Positions 25,092 to 56,373 of a stretch of 64,000 nucleotides of DNA are shown here, piece after piece; the first letter of the stretch is position 1; each line of letters begins with the position of its first letter. Location: contig NZ_FXUY01000001.1 in the NCBI RefSeq assembly GCF_900182985.1, forward strand, positions 2,108,001 through 2,172,000. Reading direction: 5' to 3'. Source of the DNA: Pseudomonas helmanticensis. Lineage in GTDB: Bacteria > Pseudomonadota > Gammaproteobacteria > Pseudomonadales > Pseudomonadaceae. The notes under the pieces were generated by a model that saw nothing but the letters and a program-made list of their open reading frames with translations, was not told where the DNA came from and ran no database searches. The translations under genes and the position numbers were made by a program.

Positions 25092-25167
25092 GCAACATCC
25101 TTGCAATCAACTGGCGTAATGCCACCCCATCAATAGCCGTGATAGTCGGAGGGCTCCTACACAAAAG

Positions 25168-39132: not shown

Positions 39133-39199
39133 GGTCGATCTCCCGGTAGGATGGGTTTCTGGGTGAGGCAAGATTACGCAAGCCGTGTGAAGGGATCTG

Positions 39200-39213
39200 T
39201 AGGATCTTTCCGA
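39200..39213 (+). promoter_or_regulatory. TAGGA-N4-TCYNA box (RcsB-like), before pseudo-receiver 1
   Basis: TAGGATCTTTCCGA is a full match to TNRGA-N4-TCYNA, preceded by TG as in the other copies. It lies 67 bases before the ATG at 39132 and 9 bases before the stop of the REC-EAL gene on the same strand. Confidence 0.55.
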
Positions 39214-39222
39214 AAGAAAAGG

Positions 39223-40443
39223 TCATTCATCCGCGGTTTTCCGAGCGTTGCGCTGTTGCAGCCAGTCGAGCAAATCCGCCCCGGACATTGGTCGCGCGTA
39301 CCAGTAGCCCTGCCCTTGCGTGCAGCCCAGCGCCAACAGTTCGCGGCGCTGGGCGTCGGTCTCGATGCCCTCAATCACCACGCTCATACCGAGGGTTTCG
39401 CCCAGCGCCAGCGTGCTGCTGATCGCGGCCCGGCAGCGCGGTTCATGTTCGAGGTTGCGAATGAAGTCAGCGTCGAGCTTGATTTCGTTGAACGGCAATT
39501 GGCACAGGCGCTGTAACGAGGAAAACCCGGCGCCGAAGTCGTCGATCGACAAGCGGCAACCCATCATGCGCAGACGTACCAAGGTTTCGAGGCTGGTGGC
39601 CGGCGCTTCGAGCAGGCCGCTTTCGGTCAGTTCGAACGTCAGGCTCGCACCCGAAGTGGCATGTCGCGCCAACAGGCTGCGCAGTCTCAAAGTCAGCTCA
39701 CCGCTGGCCAGTTGCACCGCTTGCAGGTTGAACGCCATGTTCAAGGCAAAGCCCTGCTCACGGGCACTGCGCTGCACGGCCAAGGCCTGATCCAACTGCG
39801 CAAACAGTAACGGGTCGAGCAAACCGCAACGCTCCAGCACCGGCATGAACAGCGCCGGGGAAATAATCCCCTGCGTCGGGTGCAGCCAGCGGCACAGCAC
39901 CTCAACGCCACACACCTCACCGGTGTGCAAATTGAATTTGGGTTGATACCAGGCGTGCAACTGCTGTGCAGCCAGCGCCTGACGCACTGCCGCTTCGCTG
40001 GCCAGCGTGATCACTGCGGCGGGTGCCTGCGGCAGTGCCGGGCGGTGGACGAACTTGTCGAGCAGCTCCGCCAGTACTTGCCCATGCAGCGGCTTGCCGA
40101 CATCCCCGAGCAGTTCCAGCCCGAGCAACGCGACCATCTGATGCACGGCCCGCCGCAAGTCCGCCGACAGCGAACTGCTGATGATCACCGACTTGACCTG
40201 CCCCGTGGCACCGACCCGCTGGAGAAACTCCAGGCCGTCCATCCCTTCCATTTGCAAATCGCACAAGGCCACGTCGACCGTGCCTAGGGTTTGCAGCAAT
40301 GCCAATGCCTGGGCGCCGTCACTCGCCTCGAAGACTTCCTCGCAACCGAGGGTGCGCAGCATGTTGACCGCCACCGAGCGCTGGAAGGCATGGTCTTCCA
40401 GTACCAGCACGCGCAACGGCAGTGCGGGAGATCGTCTAAACAT
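39223..40443 (-). CDS. REC-EAL response regulator, RocR-like c-di-GMP phosphodiesterase
   Basis: 406 residues from MFRRSPALPLRVLVLEDHAF. The receiver has LEDHAFQR and the phospho-Asp in VDVALCDLQMEGMDG. The EAL domain (about 145-400) reads GVEVLCRWLHP (EVL variant of EAL), FELTESGLLE, SIDDFGAGFSSLQRL, EIKLDADFI, VVIEGIETD and QGYWYARPM. All the catalytic acids, the Lys and the Gln needed for c-di-GMP hydrolysis are present, so activity is expected. Layout equals RocR of P. aeruginosa, which antagonises RocS signalling. It overlaps the upstream pseudo-receiver gene by 8 bases. Confidence 0.88.
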   Translation of the reverse strand: MFRRSPALPLRVLVLEDHAFQRSVAVNMLRTLGCEEVFEASDGAQALALLQTLGTVDVALCDLQMEGMDGLEFLQRVGATGQVKSVIISSSLSADLRRAVHQMVALLGLELLGDVGKPLHGQVLAELLDKFVHRPALPQAPAAVITLASEAAVRQALAAQQLHAWYQPKFNLHTGEVCGVEVLCRWLHPTQGIISPALFMPVLERCGLLDPLLFAQLDQALAVQRSAREQGFALNMAFNLQAVQLASGELTLRLRSLLARHATSGASLTFELTESGLLEAPATSLETLVRLRMMGCRLSIDDFGAGFSSLQRLCQLPFNEIKLDADFIRNLEHEPRCRAAISSTLALGETLGMSVVIEGIETDAQRRELLALGCTQGQGYWYARPMSGADLLDWLQQRNARKTADE

Positions 40444-40825
40444 CGAGTTGCTCCAGCAGAGGGCCAAGGGTTTGCCGATCCGGCGTACGGATCAGGCTCA
40501 AATGACGGCGCGCAGTGGTATAGATCGGCTCGGCCCAGGCCTGGCCTCGGCGCGCGTCATAAATCACGCCGTGACGAATCTGCGCACAGCTCTGAAAAAA
40601 CCGCACCGGATCGATGCCGGCGGCGGCCATCAGTTCACCGTTGATCAGCATCAGGTCAAAGTGCTCGAACGGCTCGTGCGAGTACTGGGTCACGCCCAGT
40701 AGTTCACGAAACGAACGCACCGGCGTCAGCGCGCAGTAACCCAGTTCATTCAGGGATTTGCCGATTCTGGACTGCAGCGTGGGCAGTTCTTCGGCAATCA
40801 GGATTCGCCAGCATTTGTAGGTCAT
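40436..40825 (-). CDS. Degenerate receiver-domain protein 2 (Asp to Asn at phosphosite)
   Basis: 129 residues, MTYKCWRILIAEELPTLQS. It parallels the protein at 38698: strand 1 WRILIAEE, then HFDLMLINGELMAAAG where Asn replaces the phospho-Asp, and HGVIYDARRG. The Lys-Pro pair is also absent. The two are diverged paralogues keeping the same substitution, which argues for a conserved function rather than decay. It overlaps the REC-EAL gene by 8 bases and is therefore coupled to it. A TAGGA box lies 89 bases upstream. Confidence 0.7.
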   Translation of the reverse strand: MTYKCWRILIAEELPTLQSRIGKSLNELGYCALTPVRSFRELLGVTQYSHEPFEHFDLMLINGELMAAAGIDPVRFFQSCAQIRHGVIYDARRGQAWAEPIYTTARRHLSLIRTPDRQTLGPLLEQLDV

Positions 40826-40914
40826 TGAATTCGGCAGTCATAGGAAAATTTACTGCTCCTAGCGCGTCGTAGCGAGAGCAGCTCCACACTAAGCAAAAGT
40901 CCACGACAGACATG

Positions 40915-40928
40915 TAGGACAAATCTGA
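40915..40928 (+). promoter_or_regulatory. TAGGA-N4-TCYNA box (RcsB-like), before pseudo-receiver 2 / REC-EAL unit
   Basis: TAGGACAAATCTGA is a full match, preceded by TG. It lies 89 bases before the ATG at 40825 in the 176-base gap to the autotransporter stop. Confidence 0.55.
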
Positions 40929-41001
40929 AAGTTCGACTGAATGCTCTGAAAAACTCACAAGAAAAAAGCCATGCCGGAAGGACCGACAGGGCTTGCGCGA
41001 C

Positions 41002-43146
41002 TTACCAGAGATAGCGATACCCCAGGCTCACACCAAACGGTTGCTCGATGCCGTTGCCTTTGGCGTATTCGGCATCCAAGGAGATTTTGCTCTTCTCGCT
41101 GACCTGCAATACACCGCCGAAACCGAGTTCGACGCGATTACCCGGCAGCTCGGCATCGAACTTGTTGCCATTGACGCGGACCTTGCTGCTGCCCTTGTGC
41201 TCGGTCACGTACGACGCTTTGACATACGGCTGGGCCTTCATGCCATTGCTCAATTCCAGGCTGCGCCCGAACAGCGAACCGACGCGGCTCTGCAACGAGT
41301 CCAGATCATCGGATTTGACCCGCAGGCCGTTGCTGGCGGTATAACTCGCGCCTTGGGAGCGGGTTGCCGTCAGTTCCACTTGTGGCTCGACGAACCAGCC
41401 CTCTTTCAGATCGATGCGCTTGCCGATTTCGATGTCGGCCCCGATACCATTGGTGCTGTAGGAACCTTTCACGGCCTGACCGAGATTGGTCGGGGTCTTG
41501 ATCTCGTTGTCAAAACGGCTGTACTTCAACACGCTGTCGACGTACATGCCGTTGTCGCTCAGCCAAGTGGCATAGAGGCCAAACATGCGGCTTTCGATAT
41601 TGCCGGTAGCGCCCTCACCAAAATCCAGATCCGAACGCGCGGTGCCAAGCATGCCGCCGACGTAGACCTTGCCGCTGTCCACCGCGAACGCCTTGTCGGC
41701 ACCGATTTCCAGGCCGGTGACATCTTGCGAGTAGGCACGACTGGAGTGTTCGCTGATATCGAATCGCTTGCCGATGGCGCGAGTCCAAACGCCGCCGTCA
41801 TCCTTGCCCATGCGCAGTTCGCCAAGACGCTTGACCAGCGCGTTCATCTGCGCGCTCCACAGACTCGCGCCAGCGGTATGGGCGGCGATGGCCGCGTTGG
41901 CGCCCTTGGACAAATGCTCAGGTGACGGGTCGATTGGCCGTGGTGACGCAACCGGGTCCACCGGATTGACCGGGGTCACCGGATCAACCGGCGTCACCGG
42001 GTCGACAGGCGTTACCGGATCCACCGGAGCGTTCCCCGCGCTGGCCAATACCCAGTCATCACCCTGCTGCTGCAAGGTGTAACGGAATGCCCCGGCATCA
42101 ACGTGCCCGCCGTAGAGGCCGAATTTCGCATTGCCACCATTGGTGTCGACCAGCAGCAAGCGGCCGTCCGACGACATCGGCTCATGCCCAGAATCGCCGA
42201 CGATCAGCGTGTGATCGCCGCTGGCCTGGCCAACGCCCTGCACCACCAGCACATCATTCTGCTGACTGGCGATGTCGCTGTTCATCAACACACTCCCGCT
42301 GCCGGACAGAGCACCGACCGTGAAGGTCTTGAAAGTGCCATCGCTGCTCGGGGCGAAGGCCAGGCGACCACCGTTGAGAGTCAGCGAGTCAACGGTCTTC
42401 ACCGCATTTTCCATCACGTTGACCGTGCCGCCCGTTTCGGCGACCAACCCGTTAGCCTGAGCGTCGGCATACAGATTGACCTGCCCGCCATTGCTGACCG
42501 TGCTGTTGTTGGCCGTGCCGCGGCCATAGACGTTTTGCACACCACCGTCGATGAGCGTGTCCGTGGCGATCGCGCCACCGAAGGTGGTGGTGGTCAAACG
42601 CTGCTCACCGCCACTGAGAATCCGACTGCCCTGGGATGTGCCCAGATCCGTGAGGATCTGCACCCCACCCTCGTTGACCAGGGTATCCACCGCCGTTGCG
42701 GTTAGCTGAACAGTCTGTACCCCGCCCTGATTGATCACCGTACGGTTGGCGAAGCTGTTGGCGGTCTGTACGGTTTGCGAACCGCCATTGAGAACGGTGT
42801 CGTTGGCAATGCCGGAGGTCGAGACCAACTGCGACCCCGTGGCGCCCACCACCGTGCGGTTGGAAACGCCGCTCTGCACCCGTTGACTGCCGAGTACCGT
42901 CGCGTCATTCGACACGCCATCGCGGAACACCGCCTGGGTGCCCGTCAACTCAATCAAGGTGTTGTTGGCGGTGCCGTTATCGCCAACGTTCTGCTGGCCA
43001 CCGGTAACGGTTTCGCCATCGACCACAGCGCCATTGTTGACGGTTGCAGTGAAAGCTTGCGCATGCACCGGCATCAACATGACGATGGCCAGAGCCAAGG
43101 GTGACAGGGTCAGTGCAGGACAGGTTTTTGCCGGGACAATCTTCAT
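41002..43146 (-). CDS. Autotransporter adhesin (AIDA/pertactin type)
   Basis: 714 residues. A signal peptide ends at HAQAF. The passenger (about 32-380) is built of short repeats with GG-xx-V/T-V pattern (GVSNRTVVGATGSQLV, GIANDTVLNGGSQTV), as in AIDA-I and pertactin-like beta helices. A Pro-rich linker of PVDPVT units (about 395-420) is followed by the barrel domain from about residue 440: GVWTRAIGKRF, LEIGADKAF, LYATWLSDNGMYVDSV, and the terminal aromatic YRYLW. It is placed between the two Roc-like gene groups. A TAGGA box embedded in the upstream terminator lies 77 bases before the start. Confidence 0.9.
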   Translation of the reverse strand: MKIVPAKTCPALTLSPLALAIVMLMPVHAQAFTATVNNGAVVDGETVTGGQQNVGDNGTANNTLIELTGTQAVFRDGVSNDATVLGSQRVQSGVSNRTVVGATGSQLVSTSGIANDTVLNGGSQTVQTANSFANRTVINQGGVQTVQLTATAVDTLVNEGGVQILTDLGTSQGSRILSGGEQRLTTTTFGGAIATDTLIDGGVQNVYGRGTANNSTVSNGGQVNLYADAQANGLVAETGGTVNVMENAVKTVDSLTLNGGRLAFAPSSDGTFKTFTVGALSGSGSVLMNSDIASQQNDVLVVQGVGQASGDHTLIVGDSGHEPMSSDGRLLLVDTNGGNAKFGLYGGHVDAGAFRYTLQQQGDDWVLASAGNAPVDPVTPVDPVTPVDPVTPVNPVDPVASPRPIDPSPEHLSKGANAAIAAHTAGASLWSAQMNALVKRLGELRMGKDDGGVWTRAIGKRFDISEHSSRAYSQDVTGLEIGADKAFAVDSGKVYVGGMLGTARSDLDFGEGATGNIESRMFGLYATWLSDNGMYVDSVLKYSRFDNEIKTPTNLGQAVKGSYSTNGIGADIEIGKRIDLKEGWFVEPQVELTATRSQGASYTASNGLRVKSDDLDSLQSRVGSLFGRSLELSNGMKAQPYVKASYVTEHKGSSKVRVNGNKFDAELPGNRVELGFGGVLQVSEKSKISLDAEYAKGNGIEQPFGVSLGYRYLW
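41940..42030. repeat. Coding tandem repeat of the Pro-Val-Asp-Pro-Val-Thr linker
   Basis: Degenerate 18-base units (ACCGGATCCACCGG-like) encode the PVDPVT repeats between passenger and barrel of the autotransporter. Third codon positions vary, so the protein repeat rather than the DNA is kept. Confidence 0.7.
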
Positions 43147-43192
43147 GCTTCGTACCTCAGTGATGAGGTAGCGAATTTAGAGATCAGGGGAG

Positions 43193-43240
43193 AAAAAAAG
43201 AGCAGGAAATTTCCCTTTGTTTGTAGGAAATTTCCTGCTC
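43193..43240 (-). terminator. Strong Rho-independent terminator of the OmpA-like operon
   Basis: On the minus strand GAGCAGGAAATTTCC pairs exactly with GGAAATTTCCTGCTC across an 11-base loop and is followed by seven T. The 15 bp stem is itself made of two GGAAATTTCC palindromes spaced 21 bases apart. Confidence 0.85.
43224..43237 (+). promoter_or_regulatory. TAGGA-N4-TCYNA box (RcsB-like), before autotransporter
   Basis: TAGGAAATTTCCTG matches at nine of ten defined positions, preceded by TG. It is 77 bases before the ATG but also forms one side of the terminator stem, so the match may be structural. Confidence 0.35.
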
Positions 43241-43298
43241 TCGTCACACTTGAATAGCCGTTCGCCCATTGCAGGCGAGCGACTGGCAGCCCTCGAAA

Positions 43299-44072
43299 TC
43301 AGTTACGGGCGTTCACGGCTGCGGCGCCGTTCGACACAATCACTTCGACCCGACGGTTCTGCTGCCGACCGGCTGCATTACCGTTATCGGCAACCGCATA
43401 CTCCTCGCCGTAACCCTGGGTCAGGATGCGCTGGGGATCGACACCCAGTTTCGTCAGCGCCCGGGCTACCGAAGCGGCACGACGCTCGGACAGTCGCTGG
43501 TTGGTCCCTTCGCTGCCGACATCGTCGGTGAAGCCTTCGACCCGCACCTTGCGCTCCGGGTTGTCGTTGAGGAAGTCGGCCAACTGCTGAAACTGCCGTT
43601 GACTGCCGTATTTGAGGTCAGCCTTGCCGGTGTCGAACAACACATCACCAAAGGTCACGACTTGGCCACGATCGGTCTGTTTTGCCTTCATCGCTTGCAG
43701 CGCTTTCAACTGCTGGGTGCGCACATCAAGTTGCACCTGCGTGCGCTCGGCATCGATTTTCTTCAGCCCGGCTTCCGCTTGACGGCCGGCAATGGTTTGT
43801 TCGGCCAAGGCGATTTTCTGGCTGGCCAGATACGCCAGTTGGTCGATCTGCGGTGCCTTGCGATCCTTTTGCGAGACCTGATCGGCCGCGTTCAACGCCG
43901 TGAACGCAGATTTGGTTTCAATGGTCGCCAGCGTGCTGGCTTCAGGCTTGCTTTGCAGTGCGCTGAATTGCGCGCGCGCTTCCACCAGTTGCGGATTTTC
44001 CGGCGGTGTGGCGCAGCCGGCGAGCATGACCGCGAACAATGTAGCGACAGGCAACAGTTTGAAGTTTGGCAT
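43299..44072 (-). CDS. DUF4398/OmpA-family outer membrane lipoprotein
   Basis: 257 residues from MPNFKLLPVATLFAVMLAGCATPP, with a lipobox LAGC (Cys about 20). The N-terminal half is an alpha-helical DUF4398-like region (LVEARAQFSALQSKPEAS... LASQKIALAEQTIAGRQAEAGL). The C-terminal OmpA domain has FGDVLFDTGKADL, VRVEGFTDDVGSEGTNQRLSERRA and GYGEEYAVADNGNAAGRQQNRRVEV, so it should bind peptidoglycan. It follows a second DUF4398 lipoprotein by 10 bases in one operon ended by the terminator at 43193. Confidence 0.88.
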   Translation of the reverse strand: MPNFKLLPVATLFAVMLAGCATPPENPQLVEARAQFSALQSKPEASTLATIETKSAFTALNAADQVSQKDRKAPQIDQLAYLASQKIALAEQTIAGRQAEAGLKKIDAERTQVQLDVRTQQLKALQAMKAKQTDRGQVVTFGDVLFDTGKADLKYGSQRQFQQLADFLNDNPERKVRVEGFTDDVGSEGTNQRLSERRAASVARALTKLGVDPQRILTQGYGEEYAVADNGNAAGRQQNRRVEVIVSNGAAAVNARN

Positions 44073-44082
44073 GGGCGTGTCC

Positions 44083-44496
44083 TTATTGAGCGCTGGCTGG
44101 CGGGTTGAAACCGGTGACCGGGTCTTGCAGCATTTCCTGCTTGAGCACCTGAATACCGCTACGGGCATCGGTCAGTTGCTTCTGCCATTTCACCGCGCGC
44201 GATTTACGTTCGGCGAGGTTGGCATCGGCTTCGATCTGCTCGGCCAGCAACTTGGCCCGAGGGTACTGTTTCTCGCCCAGGGCGCGTTCCATCTGGAACA
44301 TCTTGTCCTGCGCAGACTTCATTTCCAGCGGGGCATATTGCGTCGCCTCTGCCGAGACCGCACGGTTGACCGCATCCTTGGCCAGCGTGATCTGCTGCTC
44401 AGGAATCGGCGCACTGGCACAGGCGCTCAAGGCGGCCGCGATGGCCAGTCCACTGACGGCCAGGCGTACACGGGAAGACATACGGGGAAGGGTCAT
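44083..44496 (-). CDS. DUF4398-domain lipoprotein
   Basis: 137 residues with GGAG six bases before the ATG. Signal sequence and lipobox read LAIAAALSACASAP (Cys about 25). The mature protein is a helical DUF4398 domain: EQQITLAKDAVNRAVSAEATQYAPLEMKSAQDKMFQMERAL and REKQ-like follow-on. The function of this family is not established; it is often paired with an OmpA protein, as here. It is the promoter-proximal gene, and a TAGGA box lies 86 bases upstream, which ties it to the Roc block. Confidence 0.85.
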   Translation of the reverse strand: MTLPRMSSRVRLAVSGLAIAAALSACASAPIPEQQITLAKDAVNRAVSAEATQYAPLEMKSAQDKMFQMERALGEKQYPRAKLLAEQIEADANLAERKSRAVKWQKQLTDARSGIQVLKQEMLQDPVTGFNPPASAQ

Positions 44497-44582
44497 CAAC
44501 AGCTCCAGACGTTAACTAGTGAAGTGGGCTCGGCTTCTCACCGAGACCACTGCACGTTAGCGACAGAGGTAAATGACGAATG

Positions 44583-44596
44583 TAGGAAAATTCGCA
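44583..44596 (+). promoter_or_regulatory. TAGGA-N4-TCYNA box (RcsB-like), before DUF4398 operon
   Basis: TAGGAAAATTCGCA matches at nine of ten defined positions, preceded by TG. It lies 86 bases before the ATG at 44496 and 28 bases before the stop of the second hybrid kinase. Confidence 0.5.
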
Positions 44597-44624
44597 AGAG
44601 TGGACTGAAAGCGCAAATAATCGG

Positions 44625-47600
44625 TTACGCCAGATGCGCGTCCAGTTGCCCGGACAAATGCTCCATCGCCTGCTGAAGGATGTCTACCGCTTCAGTCAAC
44701 ACGAGGGTGTCGAGCCCTGCACTGGCAAGTTCCAGCGCCTCGCAGGCCTGAATCAGCGATTGCGCCTTGATGATCCGCGCACCGCCCTTGACCCGGTGCG
44801 CGAGGTCGGCGAGACCCGGCATGTCGTGCTGAGTGAACAGGCGCATCAGTTTGGCCATGTCCTGGGCATTGCTGGTGGCCAGATCGCTCAACAGACTTTT
44901 GATCGAGTCTTTGTCGCCGCGCGTCAATTGTTCGAGGCTGGTCAGATCGATATCCTCGGCCGCACGCTCGGCGAGCGGCTCCGTTGCACTTGCACGTGCC
45001 TGCGGAACGATGGCAACCAGGCGCAAATTCAGATCCTTGAGGCTGATCGGTTTGAACAGACAATCGTCCATGCCGGCCTCGGCGCAGCGATCCTTTTCCT
45101 CGGCAAGCGCATTGGCCGTGAAGCCGAGCACCAGACTTCGCGGCAGGCCTCGCGCGGCTTCTTCATCACGGATCGCCCGGGCCAGTTCATAGCCGTTCAT
45201 GATCGGCATGTTGCAGTCGGTGATGACCACGTCAAACACCTGATTGCGCCATGCGCGCAAACCGTGGGCGCCATCCTCAGCGTCCGTTACCCGATGGCCC
45301 AGATAGTTCAACTGCTGGGCCAGCAACAAACGGTTGGCCGGGTAGTCGTCGATCACCAGAATATTCAGGCTGTGCTGGCTGCGCACCGGCTCGATTTCCT
45401 CGACCGGCAGGGCAACGAGCGGCTCGAGGGTTGGCAGACTCAGGCGCACTTCAATTTGCGTGCCCTGCCCCAACTCACTGGACAACGTCAGGCTGCCGCC
45501 CATCATTTCGCACAACGTGCGACTGATCACCAGCCCCAGGCCCGAACCACTGCGAGCCGACTGGCCATGGTTGCCCGCCTGGGAGAACGGACTGAACAAC
45601 TGCGCCTGATCATCAAGGGAGATCCCGCGACCGCTGTCCTTGACCCGCAGACACAGGCTCAGGCGCTCGTCGTTTGCAGCGTCGACCTGGACGCTCAAAT
45701 GAACCTGCCCGGCATCCGTGAACTTGATCGCGTTGCTCAGCAGGTTCGACAGCACTTGCTTGAAGCGCAGCGGATCGATCAGCACATCGACATTACTCAG
45801 GGCATCCAGATCGAGTTGCAGACGCAACTGTTTCTGCCGTGCCAGACCTTCGAAGATGCGCGCCACCGACTCGACCAGTTCACGCAGGTTGGCGCGCTGC
45901 GGCGCCAGCGTCAGGCGCCCGGATTCGATCCGGGCAATGTCGAGAATGTCGCCGATCAGATCGAGCAAACCACGCGCGGCACCCGAGGCCACCTCGATGG
46001 CGAAACGATCCGTCATGCCCTGATCGGCCTTTTTCAGTGCCAGTTCGAGCATGCCGATAATGGCGTTCATCGGCGTCCGGATTTCGTGGCTCATGGACGC
46101 CAGGAACGTGGTCTTGGCCCGATTGGCATCATCGGCGATGTCTTTGGCGATTTGCAGTTCCTGCACCAGGTGCTGGCGTTCGCTGACATCGATCCAGCCA
46201 GCGATCATGCCGGCGACTGTACCGTCGCTGTCGCGGTACGGCAGCATCCAGTGGTAGATCGTCAGCGCGCGACCGTCCGCCAGATTAAGGCTGCGGTCCT
46301 GGATGCTCGGCAAGCCGTCAGCCATCACTTGCAGGTAATCATCGTGGAAGGTCTGCGCCTGCTGTCGGTCGCTGAGCACGCCGTCCGTCACCCGCTGGCC
46401 TATCACCGCTTCGCGTTCGGTGCCAAACACTTGCAGGTAACCGCTGTTGCACGTCACCAGCCGGCCTTGACGGTCGCGGACATAAATCGGGTGCGGCGTA
46501 CCGTCGATCAGCACACGCATGAATTCCATCTGATCGTTCAGCGCGACTTCCGCCTGCCGTCGCTTGCGCATCAGCAGACGCAGATAGGCGATCCAGCCCA
46601 GCGCCACCACCAACAGCACGCCGGCAATCACGAAGCCCTGAATGATCATGCCGCGATTGCGCAGCCAGTAACTGTCGTCGACCACCACTTCACTGCGCCA
46701 ACGGTTGGTCAGCTCGTCCATTTCTTCCGGGCTGATGCTCAGCAAGGCCTTGTCGAGGATCGAATACAACTCCAGCGCCCCGCGATTGGTCGCCAGCGCG
46801 ATACGCGCAGGCTGAGTGCCGACGGTACTGGAAACCTGCAAGCTGTCGCGGTACTGACGCGAGATCATGTAGCGGGCGCTGATCAGCGAGTTGATTGCGC
46901 CGTCGACCTTGCCCAGCGCCACCATGTCCATGGCATCGATAGCGTTTTGCGCAGGTATCAGCTGCACATTGGGATACTGCTCGACGAGGTATTCGCGCAG
47001 GACATTGCCGGTAATCAGCGCCAGGCGCTTACCGGCCATCTGATCCAGGGTTTTCGGTTCGCCGTCAAGGCGGGTGACCAGGACGAACGGATTGATCAGG
47101 TATGGACGGGTGAAACGCAGCTCTCCCTCACGCTCAGTGCTGGGGGTAAACGCCGCCAGCATATCGGCTTTGCCACTGCTCACCTGCTTGATCAGATCGC
47201 CGACCGAATCCACGCGCTGCAGATCGAACTGCAAACCGGTGCGCAGACTGATCTTGGCCAGTACATCGGCACTGATGCCACGGAACTTGCCGGCCTCGTC
47301 GACAAACGTCAGTGGCAGGAAATTCTCGTTGATCGCCACTTTGATGCGCGGATGCTTATCCAGCCAACGCTGTTCCCTGACGCTGAAATGCAATACATGC
47401 TGCCCGGGAATGGCGACGCCACCCACACTCCAGCGACGACGAATGCTCATGCGCTCGTCAATCGGAATAACCTTCAGCGCAGCATCGAGCACGCGCAACA
47501 ATTGGCTGTTGTCGCGCGTCACGGCGAAGCTGAAGGGTTGCGTTTCCATGCGCGAAAAATCGCTGAGCTGGACGTTGTTGAGGTAGTTCTTCTTGATCAG

Positions 47601-48260: not shown

Positions 48261-48887
48261 TCAGAGCAGGTTGTTGCGCTTGGCAAAATCAGCGAGGTAC
48301 ACCACCGACTTGACGTTGAGTTTTTCGATCAGACGCGTCTTGTAGGTGCTGACGGTTTTGTTGCTCAACAGCATGGCTTCGCCGATTTCCTTGTTGCTCA
48401 AACCTTTGGCCAGTTGCTGCAGGATGGTCAACTCGCGGTCAGACAGACTCTGGATCAGTTCCAGGTCCGTGGCCTGGGCATCACTGCGGCGCACCGAACT
48501 GCTGGCCAGGTTGGGGAAGAAGGTATAGCCGTCCATCACCACTTTGATCGCCTTGACCAGTTCGTCCAGATCATTGGTTTTGGAAATGTACCCCGCCGCG
48601 CCGGATTTCATGCAGCGCATGGAATAGAACTGCGCCGACTGCGACGTCAGCACAAGGATCTTGCAATGCAGGTTCAGTGCACTGATTCGCGAAATCACCT
48701 CCAGGCCGTCAAGCTTGGGCATCGCAATATCCAGAATGATCAGGTCCGGCTTGTGCTCGCGGGCCAGTTGCACGGCATCGGCCCCGTTGTCCGCCTCCGC
48801 CACCACGTCGAAGTGCTCTTGTTTCAACAGCATTTTAACCGCAGAACGTATGAACGGATGATCGTCCACGATGATCGCTTTAAGCAT
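48261..48887 (-). CDS. RocA1-like (NarL/BvgA family) response regulator
   Basis: 208 residues from MLKAIIVDDHPFIRSAV, with AGGGG before the ATG. The receiver has phospho-Asp in LIILDIAMPKLDG (about 54), Thr/Ser in ILVLTSQSA and Lys in GYISKTNDL. The LuxR HTH is [39 protein letters not shown]. The C-terminus FAKRNNLL matches the paralogue at 37929. NarL-type HTHs of the BvgA/RcsB kind bind short dyads, and a TAGGA-N4-TCYNA box lies 113 bases before its own start. That suggests autoregulation. Confidence 0.92.
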   Translation of the reverse strand: MLKAIIVDDHPFIRSAVKMLLKQEHFDVVAEADNGADAVQLAREHKPDLIILDIAMPKLDGLEVISRISALNLHCKILVLTSQSAQFYSMRCMKSGAAGYISKTNDLDELVKAIKVVMDGYTFFPNLASSSVRRSDAQATDLELIQSLSDRELTILQQLAKGLSNKEIGEAMLLSNKTVSTYKTRLIEKLNVKSVVYLADFAKRNNLL

Positions 48888-49000
48888 AAAAACCCCTGTA
48901 GGACACACGTCGATGCACGACATCGGCAACGCCACGAACAACGATGAGACAACGGTCCAGACAATGCGCATGTCGAAAATACACGAGCATCACTGGAGTG

Positions 49001-49014
49001 TAGGAAGTTTCTTG
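49001..49014 (+). promoter_or_regulatory. TAGGA-N4-TCYNA box (RcsB-like), before second RocA-like/RocS-like operon
   Basis: TAGGAAGTTTCTTG matches at nine of ten defined positions, preceded by TG. It lies 113 bases before the regulator start. Confidence 0.45.
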
Positions 49015-49041
49015 AAAATCACTGCACAAAATCGGCAATGA

Positions 49042-50229
49042 TCAGCGCGAGTCCGCCGGTTGTTCCAGCCACTTCAGCAGATCGTGCCCATTCATGGGGC
49101 GAGCCAGGTAATAGCCCTGGCCGATCTCGCATTCCAGCGCCAGCAAGCGTTCGAGTACCTTGGGACCGCTGACGCCCTCGATGACCAGATCCATGCCCAA
49201 CGAACGGGCCAGCACCCGCGTGCTGGCGACCATTGCGCGGTTGCGCTGGCGATCGAGGTGTTGAACAAACCGGCCATCGAGCTTGATCTGGGTGAACGGT
49301 AATTGGCAGAGCAACTTGAGCGAGGAAAACCCCACACCAAAATCGTCGACCGCCAAGCCACAACCCAATAGACGCAAACGCAGCAAATTTTCCTGAGTGC
49401 CGGTGGGACAATCGAGCAAACCGTTCTCCGCCACTTCGAACATCAATACCGAACCTTTGAAGCCATGACGTTCCAGTGCCTGCTTGATGTGCTCCACCAA
49501 TGCATTGTCATTGAGTTGCGAGGCATGCAGGTTGAAGGACAGTTCGAGGATGACGCCCCGGTGCCGCAGGATCCCCAGCAGGTTCAGGCCTTGCTCGAGC
49601 AAATGCTTGAACATCTGGTCGGTCAGGTCATAGGCCAATACCGCGGCGAGAAAGTCGCAAGGCAATAATGTGCCCCGCGCCGGATGTTCCCAGCGCGCCA
49701 GGGCCTCGACGCCGCTGACCCTGCCACTGTGCAGTTGAAACTGCGGCTGAAACCAGGCGCGGAATTCGCCCAGCGCCAGCCCGCGACGGACCTCGTCTTC
49801 GCTGGGCAGCTCCTTGTTCACCGGCATCATTTTCGGCACGGAACGGGCACGACTGTAGCGTTGCAACAATCGACTCAAGTCACGCAACTGGATCGGCCGG
49901 CTCAACACACCGAGCAACTGCAAACCGGCCAGAGAGGCCATCTGCCCCAGGGTGCGACTCATCTCCGGGGCCAACTCGCTGCACAGCATGACCGCGCGCA
50001 CCATGCCGCTGTGACTGGCCAGACGCAGGAACTCCAGACAATCGATGCCGCGATCCGTCAAATCACACATCACGATATCGACCCCACCCTGCAGGTGGAT
50101 CTGCACCATGGCCTGTTCGGCATCCGCTGCCTGCAACACGTCATGCACACACAGTTGGTGCAGCATTCTGACCAGCACGTTGCGGGCAAAATCATGATTT
50201 TCCAGCACCAGAATTCGTGGGGAGGCCAT
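49042..50229 (-). CDS. REC-EAL response regulator, RocR-like, with altered EGVE motif
   Basis: 395 residues from MASPRILVLENHDFARN. The receiver keeps the phospho-Asp (VDIVMCDLTDRGID). The EAL domain reads GVEALARWEHP, FEVAENGLL, VDDFGVGFSSLKLL, QIKLDGRFV, LVIEGVSGP and QGYYLARPM. Most catalytic residues are kept, but the second Glu of the EGVE/EGIE motif is Ser (EGVSG); the paralogue at 39223 has EGIETD. Hydrolytic activity may therefore be reduced. It is placed between a RocA-like gene and the fimbrial operon, with a TAGGA box 86 bases upstream. Confidence 0.86.
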   Translation of the reverse strand: MASPRILVLENHDFARNVLVRMLHQLCVHDVLQAADAEQAMVQIHLQGGVDIVMCDLTDRGIDCLEFLRLASHSGMVRAVMLCSELAPEMSRTLGQMASLAGLQLLGVLSRPIQLRDLSRLLQRYSRARSVPKMMPVNKELPSEDEVRRGLALGEFRAWFQPQFQLHSGRVSGVEALARWEHPARGTLLPCDFLAAVLAYDLTDQMFKHLLEQGLNLLGILRHRGVILELSFNLHASQLNDNALVEHIKQALERHGFKGSVLMFEVAENGLLDCPTGTQENLLRLRLLGCGLAVDDFGVGFSSLKLLCQLPFTQIKLDGRFVQHLDRQRNRAMVASTRVLARSLGMDLVIEGVSGPKVLERLLALECEIGQGYYLARPMNGHDLLKWLEQPADSR

Positions 50230-50315
50230 CGTTCTTTCATCACTCAATCGACCCGGGGAACGGGATAGTCGCCTGCGAAGGCAAAAAAGAACGAAGGACT
50301 AATCCTGCGTCCGTG

Positions 50316-50329
50316 TAGGAATTTTCCCA
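50316..50329 (+). promoter_or_regulatory. TAGGA-N4-TCYNA box (RcsB-like), before second REC-EAL gene
   Basis: TAGGAATTTTCCCA is a full match, preceded by TG. It lies 86 bases before the ATG at 50229 and 13 bases after the adhesin stop. Confidence 0.55.
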
Positions 50330-50342
50330 AGGAGTGCCCGCC

Positions 50343-51365
50343 TCAGTAATAAATGATCTGCACCACCATGATCGCTTCGAACGGTCCGACCTCGGGATCA
50401 CCCAGTGCGACCAACGAGGCGCTGAACGGCACATCGATATGGCTGACGTCCGCCGGGAAATTCGCCAAAGGGAAAGGTTCGTTGACCTGCACCAGGTTGT
50501 TGCGGGCATCGCGCACCTGGATCCCGAACTGGCTGCCCGCCGTCGGCAGAATGTTGTAAAGGCCCTGCTGGTTGGCGGTGACAAACGTCGCACCGATGTT
50601 GATTGCACTGCTGCACTTCTTTTCCAGCGCAAGACTGAAGGGTCGGCTCGGATTGGGCGGCGAGAACCCGGTGGTGGTTTTCTGAATCACGCCAAAATCG
50701 ACGATCCCCGGCTCAGGTGTCACTGTGACATCGACGGTGCACGCCGTGCCGACGATGTTCTGCAATCCGGAAAGTTGAAAACGAAAGTTGCCGAACGGAT
50801 TGCCCGGCCCGCCATTCAAGCCATAGAGGCCGTCGAACTGAAAAACGTCGTAGGTGTCTTGCGAAGGCCGCTGCAACGGCAACAGCCCACGCTTGCGGAT
50901 CACCACCTGAAACGCAATGCTTGGCGTCACCCGCGAGCAAGCAAGCATGTCGGCGGCGCTGGTTGCGTCCGGGCAACCACGGGAAATGAAGCCGCTGTTC
51001 ACGCCTTGGGTCGGGTTGGAACTCCAGTCGCCGTCCCAGGCCGTCACGCCGCGATAGACCAGGCCGAATTCGATGCCCCACGGCGTGGCGTTGAGACCGG
51101 CCGGGTTGCCGTAGAAATAGATCGGATCGTCTTCTTTATAGTGGATATCGAAGAGTTTCCAGCAGTTGGCCGGCACCACGTGGGTTTTCGAGCGCCAGAT
51201 GATCGTGCCGTCCGGTACAGTGTCCGGCACCGACACCGGGCCGATGTATTCGCTCAGACTGCTGCTCCCGTCCAGCGCTTTACAGACCATCGCCGAAGCG
51301 AATTGGGAAACCATCATCAGCAGCGCCGCCACCATCAGCCGGGTCAGCGCCGTGCGCAGCCTCAC
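50343..51365 (-). CDS. Fimbrial tip adhesin of chaperone-usher pilus
   Basis: 340 residues with a GTG start overlapping the chaperone stop (GTGA). A signal peptide ends QFASA. The N-terminal two-thirds (CKALDGSSSLSEYIG... WGIEFGLVYRGVTAWDGDW) looks like a receptor-binding domain. The C-terminal part is a pilin domain: ACTVDVTVTPEPGIVDFGVI, EKKCSSAINIGATF, and the closing donor-strand-type VVQIIYY. Two-domain size and last place in the operon fit a tip adhesin. Confidence 0.82.
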   Translation of the reverse strand: MRLRTALTRLMVAALLMMVSQFASAMVCKALDGSSSLSEYIGPVSVPDTVPDGTIIWRSKTHVVPANCWKLFDIHYKEDDPIYFYGNPAGLNATPWGIEFGLVYRGVTAWDGDWSSNPTQGVNSGFISRGCPDATSAADMLACSRVTPSIAFQVVIRKRGLLPLQRPSQDTYDVFQFDGLYGLNGGPGNPFGNFRFQLSGLQNIVGTACTVDVTVTPEPGIVDFGVIQKTTTGFSPPNPSRPFSLALEKKCSSAINIGATFVTANQQGLYNILPTAGSQFGIQVRDARNNLVQVNEPFPLANFPADVSHIDVPFSASLVALGDPEVGPFEAIMVVQIIYY

Positions 51366-52096
51366 GGTTTCACACCCTTGCAGACGTTCGCCACGCAGTT
51401 GAACAGCGTGTCGGACTGGCCACCGAAGTCATTCATGTTCGACACCCGCAAGGTGTTGAACGAGGTGTTGCTGAGGGCAAACCGCGCGTTGCCGCGTGGC
51501 GCGATCATCACCGTGTCGATCGGCATGCTGGTTTTTTCCGGACCGGCGAGCAGACCCACCACGGTGATGTGAAACGGCGTCGGGTTATCGACAATCAGCT
51601 GTTTCGCCGCCGAGTCGATTTTCAGCTTCAGGCCCAAGGCAAGGTCTTCGCCGCGTTCGCGCTTCACCGCCGCCGGGCGGTAGAACAACTTGATCTTCGA
51701 CTGCAAGGCAATCTGCATCGAGTTGACCGCCTGGCTCTTCGGTGGAATCTCGCGAATGTTCAGATAGAACACCGATTCACGATCCGCCGGCAACGCCAGC
51801 TCGGGCAATTTCACAATGCGCAGCACGCTGCTTTCGTTCGGCTCGATACGCTGCAACGGCGGCAGGACCATGAACGGTGACGTGACCTTCTGACCGCTCT
51901 CGTTCTCGATCCACGATTGCACAATGAACGGCAACTGCGGGTTCTTGTTGCTGACCGTAACACTCACGGACGGCGCACTTTCTTCGAACACCAGACGGGT
52001 GCGATCCGGCACGACGGCGGCGCTGGCCAGCAGCGGCAGACAAAGGCCGACGGCCAGCCACAGACGATGAGCGGTTAACACAGTAAAACGAGACAT
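51362..52096 (-). CDS. Periplasmic fimbrial chaperone (PapD/FimC family)
   Basis: 244 residues from MSRFTVLTAHRLWLAVG, with GGAG six bases upstream. A signal peptide ends LASAA. PapD-like features are VVPDRTRLVFEESAPSVSVTVSNKN, the alternating hydrophobic G1 strand SVLRIVKLPELALPADRESVFYLNIREIPP, and NPTPFHITVVGL in domain 2. A pair of Cys near the C-terminus (LFNCVANVCKG) is typical. It folds and caps subunits for the usher. Confidence 0.93.
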   Translation of the reverse strand: MSRFTVLTAHRLWLAVGLCLPLLASAAVVPDRTRLVFEESAPSVSVTVSNKNPQLPFIVQSWIENESGQKVTSPFMVLPPLQRIEPNESSVLRIVKLPELALPADRESVFYLNIREIPPKSQAVNSMQIALQSKIKLFYRPAAVKRERGEDLALGLKLKIDSAAKQLIVDNPTPFHITVVGLLAGPEKTSMPIDTVMIAPRGNARFALSNTSFNTLRVSNMNDFGGQSDTLFNCVANVCKGVKP

Positions 52097-52125
52097 GGTG
52101 ACTCCGAATTCATTGGAAGACGCGG

Positions 52126-54570
52126 TTACAGACACTGAGCAGGCTTGGCGACGTTGGTCACCACGTCTTCCTCAGGGAGTTTGGCCAGGCTGCATTGGCC
52201 GGCGTCATCCCAACGCGCTACCAGTTCAGCCCCTGCCTTGATGCCCAACAGATAAGTGACGCCCGCCTCGCCGACGATGCCCACTTCCTTATTGGTGTTC
52301 TTGTCTTGCACCGATGCGCCGAACGGCACCGGTTTACCGTCGGCACGGGTCAACACGACAAACGCGTTATGGCCCTGACCGGTGGAGAAATTGACGTAGC
52401 CGATGGCGCCCTCGGTCAGCGCCAGACGCTGGATCGGGTTGGAGACTTCGGTGTTGAGCGGCAGCTTTTCGACGTTGACCCGCGCCTCGTACGCCTGAAA
52501 CGACGGCAAGCCGTCCATCACCGCGTAGCCTTCGCCGTTGGTGCGGGTTTGGCCGGTGAAAGCCACGTCCGGCACGCCGTCGGTGGACACTAATAAGCGC
52601 GTATCACCGTTGGTGCCGTTGCCATGAGCCGACACGCCATAACGGGTGGCGACCAAGGAACTGTCGAGTTCGCCGGTCAGCGAGCGATAAGTGCTGCCAT
52701 CGGTGGAGGCCGACGCATTGGCGCGGTAACTCGATGCGCGTTTGCCGACATAGGCGTTGACGTAGCGGTTGTCGCCGACGCCGCCATACAGCTGATAATT
52801 CACGCCTTCGCCGTCATCATGGCTGTAACCGACACTGGCTGACGAATTGCCGTTACCCGAGCGCTGCAAGTTGCTCGACAGCATCGAGTTGCCGCCCAGA
52901 GGCACGGTCACGCCGAGATATATCTGCGAGTCGTTCTGCCGACTGTTCTGGGTCTGGTAGGCCGAGACGTTGACGTTGATGTTCTTGACGTTGCCGAGGG
53001 AAAAACTGCGCGCCACGGTCAACCCGAAACGATCGGCGGCGGGCGCATCCCAATAGGTCGAGTGGTCGTAAGAGAAGCTCGTCGACAACCAGGAAAAATG
53101 CTTGGCCACGGTCACCGAATAACGCTGTTTTCCCGAGTTCAGCGCATAGGAATCGGCATCGCCGACAAACTGCGAAAAGTTGGTGAAGGTCTTGTCGGAA
53201 AAGCGATAGCCCAAAAAACGCAGGTCGGTGCCGATGGCATCGAAACGCTTGGAATAGTTGATCCGGTAGGAGTTGCCGACCACGGTTTCGCCGCTCCAGC
53301 GCAGCTTGGCCCGGGAGTTTGTGACATCCCCCGACACCGCGCCGAAGACGCCGAGATCCTTACCGATACCGATCGCGTTGGACTGGTAACCCGCAGCGCC
53401 GAGCATGCCGCCGTACACCGTCCAGTCTTTCGCCAGACCGTAGGCCGCCTCCGTCGCCACGAATTCTGGCTCAGTGCCGCCATTGCCGGTCAGGCGCGGC
53501 TGACCGGCGGACACCTTGTAGCGCAACTCACCTTCACGGGACAGAAACGGCACGGCGGCGGTGGCCACGGTGAACGTCTGCTCGGTGCCGTCCTCTTCGC
53601 GCACGGTCACGTCCAGAGTGCCTTGCACGCTGCTGTTGAGATCCTGAATGCTGAATGCGCCCGGCGTCACCGTGGTCGAGTACAACACGCGGCCCTGTTG
53701 GGACACGGTGACGGTCGCGTTGGTGCGCGCAACGCCACTGATCAACGGCGCATACCCGCGCAGGTTCGGCGGCAACATGCGGTCATCGCTGCTCAGGGTC
53801 GCACCGCGCAGGGCGAAGGTGTCGAACACGTCGGAGTTCAGATAATCCTCGCCTACCGACAGCTTCGAACGAATCGATGGCAACGCCCGATAGGCGTACA
53901 AACGGTTCAACTGGAACGCTTCGCCGTGGGAATCATGGCTCTGGCTACCGGACTCCTGGCGCGCCTGATAATCGGCGCGAATACGCCAGGCATCGAGGTT
54001 GATCCCCGCTGTGCCGTAGCTCTGTAATGAACGCGAATCGCCGGACGGCGTATTGGTTTCACGGCTGTTGGCGATCACTCGGTAGTCGAGCAATGCGCCG
54101 TTGAGCCCGTCGCTCCAGGCGGCGGGCGGAATGTAGTTGGGGTCGTCATATTCGAAGGTGGCCTGCGGCAGACTGATCGACAGGCGCCCAAGGTTTTTCA
54201 TGTACTTGATCGACGCATTTTCAATGCCGCGCAGATCCACGCATTGACCGTCAGCCAGACGCGGCAGGTTTTCCAGCAAAGCAGGCTTGAGACCAAAGGT
54301 CGCCACCAGGTCTGCGGGCAGACAGGCGTAACTTTCATCCGCTTTATCACCGGCCTTGAACTCGATCGAGCGCGAGCCGAAGTAACGCTGGTTAACGGTA
54401 ATGTCCAGCAAGTAACGGCCAGGCACAGTGTATTGGGCATGGGCAAACTGTCCGAGACTGATATCGTCATTTTTATCGATATTCAGGAACTCCGAATTAA
54501 ACTCCACGGCGTTTGAATAACGCGCACAGGAGATCAACACGCAAGACACGAAAAGTTTTCGGCCGTACAC
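52126..54570 (-). CDS. Outer membrane fimbrial usher (FimD/PapC family)
   Basis: 814 residues with a GTG start. A signal peptide ends near RYSNAVEFN. The N-terminal domain has FNSEFLNIDKNDDISLGQFAH and the barrel starts near LLDYRVIANS. The plug contains LPPNLRGYAPLISGVARTNATVTVSQQGRVLY. The C-terminal domain has GASVQDKNTNKEVGIVGEAG and LYLLG-like strands. It assembles and secretes the pilus. It lies after the terminator at 54607 and 29 bases before the chaperone. Confidence 0.94.
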   Translation of the reverse strand: MYGRKLFVSCVLISCARYSNAVEFNSEFLNIDKNDDISLGQFAHAQYTVPGRYLLDITVNQRYFGSRSIEFKAGDKADESYACLPADLVATFGLKPALLENLPRLADGQCVDLRGIENASIKYMKNLGRLSISLPQATFEYDDPNYIPPAAWSDGLNGALLDYRVIANSRETNTPSGDSRSLQSYGTAGINLDAWRIRADYQARQESGSQSHDSHGEAFQLNRLYAYRALPSIRSKLSVGEDYLNSDVFDTFALRGATLSSDDRMLPPNLRGYAPLISGVARTNATVTVSQQGRVLYSTTVTPGAFSIQDLNSSVQGTLDVTVREEDGTEQTFTVATAAVPFLSREGELRYKVSAGQPRLTGNGGTEPEFVATEAAYGLAKDWTVYGGMLGAAGYQSNAIGIGKDLGVFGAVSGDVTNSRAKLRWSGETVVGNSYRINYSKRFDAIGTDLRFLGYRFSDKTFTNFSQFVGDADSYALNSGKQRYSVTVAKHFSWLSTSFSYDHSTYWDAPAADRFGLTVARSFSLGNVKNINVNVSAYQTQNSRQNDSQIYLGVTVPLGGNSMLSSNLQRSGNGNSSASVGYSHDDGEGVNYQLYGGVGDNRYVNAYVGKRASSYRANASASTDGSTYRSLTGELDSSLVATRYGVSAHGNGTNGDTRLLVSTDGVPDVAFTGQTRTNGEGYAVMDGLPSFQAYEARVNVEKLPLNTEVSNPIQRLALTEGAIGYVNFSTGQGHNAFVVLTRADGKPVPFGASVQDKNTNKEVGIVGEAGVTYLLGIKAGAELVARWDDAGQCSLAKLPEEDVVTNVAKPAQCL

Positions 54571-54606
54571 GGTAAATAGCCTTTATCAGAACTTTGACGA
54601 AAAAGA

Positions 54607-54630
54607 AAAAAGGGGCTTTCACCCCTTTTT
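54607..54630 (-). terminator. Attenuating terminator between major pilin and usher
   Basis: On the minus strand AAAAAGGGG-TGAAAG-CCCCTTTTT is a 9 bp stem ending in a T run. It would let most transcripts stop after the pilin, giving more subunit than usher. Confidence 0.85.
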
Positions 54631-54654
54631 CTTACAACTTGCGATACTGCGGTA

Positions 54655-55188
54655 TCAGTTGTAGGCCACGGTGAAGTTGGCAACGCTGTCTGCTTCACCG
54701 GTGGTGACGGTCGCAGCGGTGGCTTCGTACATGGCGGCGAAGGTCACGGTGTTGTTGCCGTTTTGCAGCACAACCGGAGCGACCTGCTCGGTGCCGTTGT
54801 CGAGCATTTCGCCGGCGCTGGCCTGCAGACGGATGCCGACGTTCTGCGCCAGACCGGTGGTGGCGAACAGGCCCGGAACCGCTGGATCCTGCACACCGCT
54901 GAAGGTGAAGCGCGCGTTCTTCTGGGTGGTGGTGTCGCAGTCGGTCAGGATGATGTCGAACTTGACCGGGGTCGAACGGCTGCCGACGGCGGTGAATTGA
55001 TTCGATGGCACCTGACCCAGGGAAACGGTCTGGTCCAGAGAGCTGGCGTCGATACCGCAGGCGCCGGATACGATTTCACCAATGAAACGCACGGTGCCAG
55101 GGTTGCCGGAAGCTGGCGTCGCAGCGTTGGCGAAAGAAGCAAGACCCATGACAACGGTAGCGGCGGTAACAGCGACGATCTTTTTCAT
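54655..55188 (-). CDS. Major fimbrial subunit (type 1 pilin family)
   Basis: 177 residues. A signal peptide ends SFANA-ATP. The mature pilin has TVRFIGEIVSGACGIDASSLDQTVSLG, with Cys paired to the Cys in DIILTDCDT, and a C-terminal beta-zipper SVANFTVAYN. AAGAGAT lies before the ATG. It is first in the operon pilin, usher, chaperone, adhesin. Expression may use the TAGGA box at 55474. Confidence 0.93.
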   Translation of the reverse strand: MKKIVAVTAATVVMGLASFANAATPASGNPGTVRFIGEIVSGACGIDASSLDQTVSLGQVPSNQFTAVGSRSTPVKFDIILTDCDTTTQKNARFTFSGVQDPAVPGLFATTGLAQNVGIRLQASAGEMLDNGTEQVAPVVLQNGNNTVTFAAMYEATAATVTTGEADSVANFTVAYN

Positions 55189-55473
55189 GTTTTACATCTC
55201 TTGGGATAGTTATTTATTCGGCCCAGCGGCCTGGCTTTCCCAATCACTCATCAACGGCAACAGGTTTATTCGCAACAGCGAACAAACTTCCTCACGAACT
55301 CTGCAACCGATGGTCCCCCCCATATATCCGGCCTTTCCTTGCCGAACTTTCCAGGTATCCGTTGCACAGCCGTAAATCCGTAACAAGTCATCAGAACGCC
55401 GGGCATCTCTGCTCCGGAACAAATAGTGATCGAGACCCAAGGCTGAAAATGTAAGTTCTTTCTTGCCGCCTTG
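55189..55473 (-). other. Long leader region of the fimbrial operon
   Basis: The 313 bases between mgtC and the pilin hold no supported gene. An open frame of 71 codons (55266-55481, MSYKAARKNLHFQ...) overlaps the box, lacks a ribosome binding site and resembles nothing I know. If transcription starts near the TAGGA box, the pilin has an untranslated leader of about 250 bases. Confidence 0.4.
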
Positions 55474-55487
55474 TAGGACAATTCTCA
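55474..55487 (+). promoter_or_regulatory. TAGGA-N4-TCYNA box (RcsB-like), before fimbrial operon
   Basis: TAGGACAATTCTCA is a full match, preceded by TG, in the same orientation as the others. It lies 285 bases before the pilin start. Confidence 0.5.
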
Positions 55488-56286: not shown

Positions 56287-56373
56287 CTGTAGGAGCTGCC
56301 GCAGGCTGCGATCTTTTGCTGTTGCCTTTTAAAAACAACATCAACAGATCGCAGCCTTCGGCAGCTCCTACAG
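56287..56373. repeat. REP-like inverted repeat pair between mgtA and mgtC
   Basis: CTGTAGGAGCTGCCGCAGGCTGCGATCTTTTG and its near complement ending CTCCTACAG. It lies within the 163-base gap of the mgtA-mgtC pair, where it may stabilise the upstream message. Confidence 0.9.

Follow-up and report, generated by a model that had tools for sequence, protein, structure and literature searches.

The window analysed here is a 64,000-nucleotide stretch of the Pseudomonas helmanticensis genome (contig NZ_FXUY01000001.1, positions 2,108,001 to 2,172,000), in which two Roc signalling systems, each with a hybrid kinase (RocS), a NarL-family response regulator (RocA) and a receiver-EAL protein, adjoin a chaperone-usher fimbrial operon. 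We identify a box, GA-N4-TCCTACA on the strand of the genes, that recurs seven times in this block, is conserved in related loci, co-occurs with RocA-like genes across the genus and is followed at many promoters by a weaker copy of itself and a -10-like hexamer at set distances. From sequence comparisons we propose, with considerable confidence, that the box is an operator of the RocA group of EvgA/BvgA-like regulators; RocA/BvgA-type operator is a better name for it than RcsB box.

A repeated box and its recurrence in related loci

A sequence-only reading of the window had described TAGGA-N4-TCYNA sites at 39200, 40915, 43224, 44583, 49001, 50316 and 55474. All seven lie where it placed them, with exact plus-strand matches at 39200, 40915, 50316 and 55474 and one mismatch at 43224, 44583 and 49001; the repeated box is confirmed. 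Measured from the first TAGGA base, the assigned start codon is 68 bp away for the receiver-like gene psR1, 90 for its relative psR2, 78 for an autotransporter, 87 for a DUF4398 gene, 114 for RocA2, 87 for the second receiver-EAL gene and 286 for the pilin gene, the earlier reading having given 67-113 for the six shorter ones. The strand of the genes offers a better description, GA-N4-TCCTACA, which fits seven of seven sites. The original pattern caught the core and found the sites, but it omitted both TCCTACA, the most constant part, and the second box.

Across the whole window, the loose pattern with up to one mismatch gives 16 matches against 6.87 +/- 2.96 expected, a count reached by 1 of 100 shuffles and an enrichment that is only moderate; one additional exact TAGGA-N4-TCYNA match lies at 25146-25159 on the minus strand. 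The 6.53-Mb genome holds 106 matches to GA-N4-TCCTACA (reversed control, 26) and 34 to GA(A/T)NNN-TCCTACA (reversed control, 5). Seven of these 34 fall in the 16-kb block, where 0.085 would be expected (Poisson P about 6e-12), and all seven are on the strand of the genes. Because the loose-pattern test was weak, tests on other loci followed, and because the pattern was refined after the seven sites had been viewed, it is these loci that provide the real test.

A search of 298 Pseudomonas genomes for RocA2 orthologues found one at E<=1e-86 in 29 genomes, the source genome included. We assembled 41 loci from the best 12 of 80 RocA2 relatives (L031-L042) and 29 stretches spanning the 30 other matches of that search; 39 non-redundant loci were left after duplicates L122 and L126 were dropped, and the remaining 68 of the 80 relatives form a less similar paralogue group (57-60%). 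The box does recur upstream of orthologous genes. Together the 39 loci and this block contain 87 boxes (seven being the window's own), 75 in the direction of rocA2 and 12 opposite, against a mean of 4.1 and a maximum of 37 for 1000 letter-permuted patterns. Recognised homologues of window genes lie downstream of 74 of the 87, and no box falls within coding sequence that a window protein matches. The targets are RocA2 (15), the second receiver-EAL gene (13), psR1 (11), divergent fimbrial chaperone operons (10), pilin (10), the first receiver-EAL gene (6), the autotransporter (4), DUF4398 (3) and psR2 (2), with 13 boxes lacking an assigned gene.

Locus L031 is boxed before pilin, the second receiver-EAL gene, RocA2, DUF4398, the autotransporter and psR1; it has no exact box before psR2, whose box is also present in L125. 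Close pilin homologues are boxed in L031, L040, L121 and L131 as well, and boxes also precede fimbrial genes merely ~30-38% identical, including those of unrelated fimbrial operons. Upstream regions of receiver-EAL genes in relatives match at 14 or more of 16 positions in 22 of 25 cases. For rocA2 itself, no more than one shuffle in 100 equalled the best upstream match in 15 of the 39 loci, and the autoregulation suggested earlier is plausible for part of the loci. Among the 68 paralogue loci, 42 have the box, in one or the other orientation, no more than 300 bp upstream of rocA, compared with a mean of 0.13 and a best of 9 for 2000 permuted patterns, and in another genus of the same family (g12) all eight rocS-rocR-rocA (roc1-like) loci are boxed between rocR and rocA.

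Box number also follows the presence of RocA-like genes, which we scored at E<=1e-50 in 252 of the 298 genomes, the 46 RocA-less genomes being the complement. GGAANNTTCCTACA has 596 matches in the 298 genomes (reversed control, 53). The RocA-bearing group accounts for 590 of them, spread over 210 of its 252 genomes (0.379 per Mb), and the other 46 genomes for six, each in a different genome (0.028 per Mb). When the comparison is restricted to genomes of 4.5-5.5 Mb, 35 of 42 with RocA are boxed versus 4 of 30 without (Fisher P 2e-9). A palindrome control of the same letters, GAGANNTCTCTACA, has 10 hits in the 298 genomes, by our count nine with RocA and one without, a split that leaves no per-Mb contrast between the groups. 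Two genomes, G023 and G077, hold the most GGAANNTTCCTACA boxes of the 298, with 15 and 9. Of 55 boxes in a set of 20 genomes, 16 have a rocA-like or usher gene within 4 kb against 0.5 expected, a value based on rounded genome sizes; this count omits the G053 box, the second G189 box and any rocA or usher gene sited on a different contig.

Architecture of the putative operator

The box consensus, T(A/G)GGAAATTTCCTACA, is a near-palindrome. When boxes are aligned on GA, a second and weaker copy appears 22 bp closer to the gene: at 21-23 bp, a copy scoring 9/14 or better accompanies 27 of the 55 non-redundant sites, while other offsets average 1.2 sites with a maximum of 7. A -10-like hexamer begins at +56, with A2 and T6 co-occurring in 47% of the 55 sites and 66% of the 35 tandem sites, and over 34 clusters of sites 0 of 2000 shuffles attain the observed score. 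Single-linkage clustering combined dissimilar promoters in a single group of 21; the non-redundant set gives the same offset. Sites from other genera (eight non-redundant, unused in deriving the rule) again have 22 as the best offset, with A2/T6 at 57 in 62%. At 28 non-redundant rocA paralogue sites, likewise unused for the rule, the strong box has the opposite orientation and its copy again lies 22 bp nearer the gene. The corresponding features of the window, all on the minus strand, are as follows.

39198..39213, minus: putative RocA box before psR1, with RocA1 and RocS1 next, TCGGAAAGATCCTACA; no second box
40913..40928, minus: putative RocA box before psR2 and EAL1, TCAGATTTGTCCTACA; no second box at 21-23 bp
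43222..43237, minus: putative RocA box before the autotransporter, CAGGAAATTTCCTACA; also in L031, L121 and L123
43203..43216, minus: second box, 21 bp closer to the autotransporter, AGGGAAATTTCCTG, 12/14 of consensus
43174..43179, minus: predicted -10 of the autotransporter promoter, TAAATT at +55, placed from the +56 rule
44581..44596, minus: putative RocA box before the DUF4398-OmpA operon, TGCGAATTTTCCTACA; no second box; also in L031 and L121
48999..49014, minus: putative RocA box before RocA2-RocS2, CAAGAAACTTCCTACA; no second box
50314..50329, minus: putative RocA box before the second receiver-EAL gene, TGGGAAAATTCCTACA
50294..50307, minus: second box, 22 bp closer to the receiver-EAL gene, CAGGATTAGTCCTT, 10/14
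50265..50270, minus: predicted -10 of the second receiver-EAL promoter, GACTAT at +56
55472..55487, minus: putative RocA box before the fimbrial operon, TGAGAATTGTCCTACA
55452..55465, minus: weak second box, 22 bp closer to pilin, CAAGAAAGAACTTA, 8/14, under the count threshold of 9
55423..55428, minus: predicted -10 of the fimbrial promoter, CACTAT at +56

The autotransporter -10 sits one base nearer, at +55, because the box spacing there is 21.

The candidate regulator and its alternatives

Targets of BvgA in Bordetella include pertactin-type and fimbrial genes, as do the boxed genes here, and BvgR is an EAL protein. The box is closest to the BvgA operator, not to that of RcsB: our consensus TRGGAAATTTCCTACA, built from 87 sites, shares 13 of 14 bases with TAAGAAATTTCCTA, the primary BvgA site of Pfha, where dimers bind every 22 bp and the last abuts the -35 (available portion of PMC7250471). 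BvgA operators pair a strong distal with a weaker proximal site at 22 bp, the proximal one adjoining the -35; a copy at 21-23 bp is seen at 27 of our 55 sites and, in the window, clearly at two of seven and weakly at one. The regulators also resemble each other in having an antagonistic partner, and BvgA/BvgR and RocA1/RocR are set side by side in the accessible part of PMC9331949. The boxes here differ in adding CA after TCCTA and in forming putative operators of one or two boxes, unlike the three of Pfha and six of Pptx, and the EAL proteins here, unlike BvgR, carry a receiver domain.

EvgA of E. coli K-12 is similar in its half-site TTC(C/T)TACA, found upstream of yfdX, frc, ydeP and safA, and in the motif KTVSTYK of its helix-turn-helix (HTH), which is shared with the four RocA paralogues of this genome. 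We nevertheless rejected identity with the EvgA operator, as the E. coli sites read TTCYTACA-N2-TGTARGAA and the two K-12 regions inspected (L118, L119) carry the half-site in the opposite arrangement.

The Roc system of P. aeruginosa is another close parallel, with RocS-type kinases, RocA regulators, receiver-EAL proteins and chaperone-usher targets. DNA affinity purification sequencing of its RocA1, RocA2 and RocA3 gave highly similar motifs and shared targets (roc1, cupB, cupC and lepBA), with overlapping targets in vitro and mostly single-regulator dependence in vivo (PMC12051241). The present block differs in having two full systems side by side, and in its boxed autotransporter, DUF4398-OmpA operon and receiver-like genes. 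Among the open-library records listed, and in the portions of PMC3083521 and PMC9331949 consulted, we found no account of such a 22-bp tandem for Pseudomonas; the portions of PMC8041468 and PMC13086498 have no RocA passage, and that of PMC7253368 gives no motif letters.

The first alternative is that the box is an RcsB/RcsAB-type operator of another, RcsB-like regulator and not of RocA, which we regard as unlikely. The sequence-only reading had called the box RcsB-like, and this holds for its GA-N4-TC core and spacing: the TNRGA-N4-TCYNA core that this reading gives for RcsB is matched, in the form TAGGA-N4-TCYNA, at four sites exactly and at three with one mismatch. There is also precedent in P. 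aeruginosa PA14, where GAA at -78 to -76, picked by analogy with the RcsAB box, is crucial for the cupD1 promoter in an RcsB-expressing strain; the same study predicts sites before PA0034, PA3714 and PA1468, the last modelled as a receiver (PMC3842833). That RcsB/PvrR-CupD system resembles ours in its GAA-dependent site before a fimbrial operon and its predicted sites before response-regulator genes and PA1468, and differs in being island-borne, in having its sites likened to the RcsAB box and in showing no 22-bp tandem in the part of PMC3842833 available. E. coli RcsB is a poor relative, however. Its HTH is 29% identical to that of RocA2 (26% overall), the HTH values for EvgA and for the remaining RocA paralogues being 48% and 60-63%, and it reads KTISSQK where RocA and EvgA read KTVSTYK. 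RcsB was dropped as the nearest relative after this comparison of the HTH and in view of the better match of the BvgA site, which has the 22-bp spacing too (PMC7250471). Box number tracking RocA-like genes also argues against another regulator. No RcsB model is among the 25 best NCBIfam hits listed, no genome search having been aimed at RcsB orthologues.

A second alternative concerns the 43224 copy, which the sequence-only reading had cautioned sits in a terminator stem. It does lie in a stem, but the stem consists of two box copies 21 bp apart: at 43202-43237, between the OmpA-DUF4398 operon and the autotransporter, the two copies make up an inverted repeat, and a run of T comes after it. 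That this copy is merely the intrinsic terminator of the DUF4398-OmpA operon would account for the ~15 bp inverted repeat and T run in this genome; we consider it quite improbable, since in L031, L121 and L123, where the flanks differ, a pair of boxes 21 bp apart likewise precedes the autotransporter. It may be both, and a combined operator and terminator is possible.

Still less probable is a core promoter element, for example one read by an alternative sigma factor, in place of an activator site. The constant distance to the -10-like hexamer would fit such an element, but a box starting 56 bp from the -10 is too distant to be a -35, the rocA paralogues have the strong box in reversed orientation, and the boxes co-occur with RocA-like genes. 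An origin in remnants of repetitive extragenic palindromic (REP) repeats, which also begin TGTAGGA, was rejected and has next to no probability: 51 of the 106 genomic GA-N4-TCCTACA matches have the form GACNGCTCCTACA, which we take, with the sequence-only reading, to be REP-type, and TGTAGGAGC motifs adjoin the block at 56288 and 56364, yet none of the seven window boxes or the 87 boxes has the GACNGCTCCTACA form, and the narrow distances to start codon, second box and -10 are foreign to REP.

Several observations weigh against assigning the box to RocA, or against the generality of the tandem rule. On co-occurrence, the statistics take no account of kinship among the 298 genomes, which are not phylogenetically independent; the reversed control, too, is less frequent where RocA is missing (1 vs 52 matches; 0.005 vs 0.033 per Mb), so that part of the contrast may be composition, an effect absent from the same-letter control GAGANNTCTCTACA. 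On location, 39 of the 55 boxes in the 20 genomes lie more than 4 kb from any rocA-like or usher gene, no exact box was found in 9 of the 39 orthologue loci, and the match upstream of rocA2 stands clearly above shuffles in just the 15 loci given above. Beyond Pseudomonas, the other eight rocA loci fetched from genus g12 have no box, and genus g9 has one in 2 of 4 loci. On architecture, a second box of at least 9/14 is present at two of the seven window sites (autotransporter 12, second receiver-EAL gene 10; pilin reaches 8) and the scan found none at psR1, psR2, DUF4398 or RocA2; other-genera sites reach 9/14 at 21-23 bp in just 2 of 8 cases, and the L176-L204 set has weak peaks at both +22 and -22 with no -10 at 56. 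In this genome, 15 of the 27 GA(A/T)N3-TCCTACA sites outside the block are within open frames of at least 90 codons and a second box reaching 9/14 accompanies just 4 of the 27; many of the 27 are probably chance.

With RocA retained as the candidate regulator, we infer the following mechanism of binding, phosphorylation, activation and feedback. A RocA dimer would bind the strong distal box and, at many promoters, recruit a second dimer to the weaker box 22 bp nearer the gene and adjoining the -35, with the -10 held at a fixed distance, in the manner of BvgA. RocS kinases would phosphorylate RocA, which would then activate the fimbriae, the autotransporter, the DUF4398-OmpA operon, the receiver-like proteins and sometimes rocA. 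It would also activate the receiver-EAL phosphodiesterases, and these may in turn damp the response through cyclic di-GMP or by competition for the kinase. Whether a single BvgA-type operator rule is common to all RocA paralogues across Pseudomonas, with unrelated adhesin cassettes plugging into one Roc network and receiver-like proteins without the acceptor Asp as conserved regulon members, is a wider proposal for which we see the chances as evenly balanced.

Genes of the block and boxes elsewhere

The genes of the block, all on the minus strand, are listed with the basis of each assignment.

34700..37918, minus: RocS1, EvgS-type hybrid kinase; best NCBIfam model EvgS
37929..38555, minus: RocA1, NarL-family response regulator, EvgA-like; receiver and GerE domains
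38698..39132, minus: psR1, receiver-like protein; alignment and structure model
39223..40443, minus: EAL1, receiver-EAL protein (RocR-like); domain search
40436..40825, minus: psR2, second receiver-like protein of the psR1 family; alignment
41002..43146, minus: AIDA/pertactin-type autotransporter; AIDA and pertactin domains
43299..44496, minus: DUF4398 protein (44083-44496) and DUF4398-OmpA protein (43299-44072); domain search
44625..48260, minus: RocS2, EvgS-type hybrid kinase; NCBIfam
48261..48887, minus: RocA2, NarL-family response regulator, EvgA-like; receiver and GerE domains, NCBIfam, solved-structure match
49042..50229, minus: EAL2, receiver-EAL protein; domain search
50343..55188, minus: chaperone-usher fimbrial operon, with pilin (54655-55188) and usher (52126-54570)
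The same operon, continued, minus: chaperone (51362-52135) and adhesin-like protein (50343-51365), named from sequence and position

The layout is that of a Roc system, a hybrid kinase, RocA regulator and receiver-EAL protein adjoining a chaperone-usher operon. The best NCBIfam model for RocA1 and RocA2 is EvgA (NF007419), at 160.4 and 183.0 bits, both below the 251-bit equivalog cut-off; for RocS1 and RocS2 it is EvgS, with scores far below cut-off. EvgA is also the closest solved structure to RocA2. The adhesin-like protein has no Pfam hit.

Neither psR1 nor psR2 has a Pfam or NCBIfam match; the two align with each other and with proteins from other loci. A structure model of psR1 (mean predicted local distance difference test score 79) resembles receiver domains, which make up most of the 50 Foldseek matches listed from the PDB, RocR included; the best E-value is 8e-4, the sole one below 0.001. 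At position 59, placed by eye, the family has a nearly invariant Asn where the acceptor Asp is expected. Genes of this receiver-like family (38698-39132 and 40436-40825 here) are often boxed in relatives, a parallel to PA1468 (PMC3842833, in part).

The local regulon suggested by the sequence-only reading stands as a shared operator tied to NarL-family regulators, but it is not local, with boxes elsewhere in the genome and the genus. In this genome, boxes outside the block accompany fimbrial genes at C1:877k and, on C2, two paralogues of rocA. At the second fimbrial cluster (L151), the boxes at C1:877322 and 878654 are both 14/14; their second copies score 11 (at 21) and 8 (at 22), and GATAAT stands at +55 and +56; the 878654 box is inside a 120-codon open frame. 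Reversed boxes lie upstream of the two rocA paralogues (L112 and L113, C2 near 1144900 and 420400), one adjoining a gene we take to be endonuclease III-like and the other a presumably dGTPase-like gene. A box at C1:74333 (L003), with no second box, lies 74 bp before a gene that we assume to be MlaA/VacJ-like, and an intergenic box at C2:1194577 (L225) has a weak second copy (8/14) and no obvious target close by.

As far as the literature we consulted goes, the kind of operator was already known from P. aeruginosa, and what is new is the tandem rule together with the additional targets. A list of look-alike sites becomes a testable promoter rule, one that could predict Roc-controlled fimbriae, adhesins and phosphodiesterases in other Pseudomonas genomes. 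It also places an operator geometry long studied in Bordetella in a different lineage, and it indicates psR1 and psR2 as parts of the circuit.

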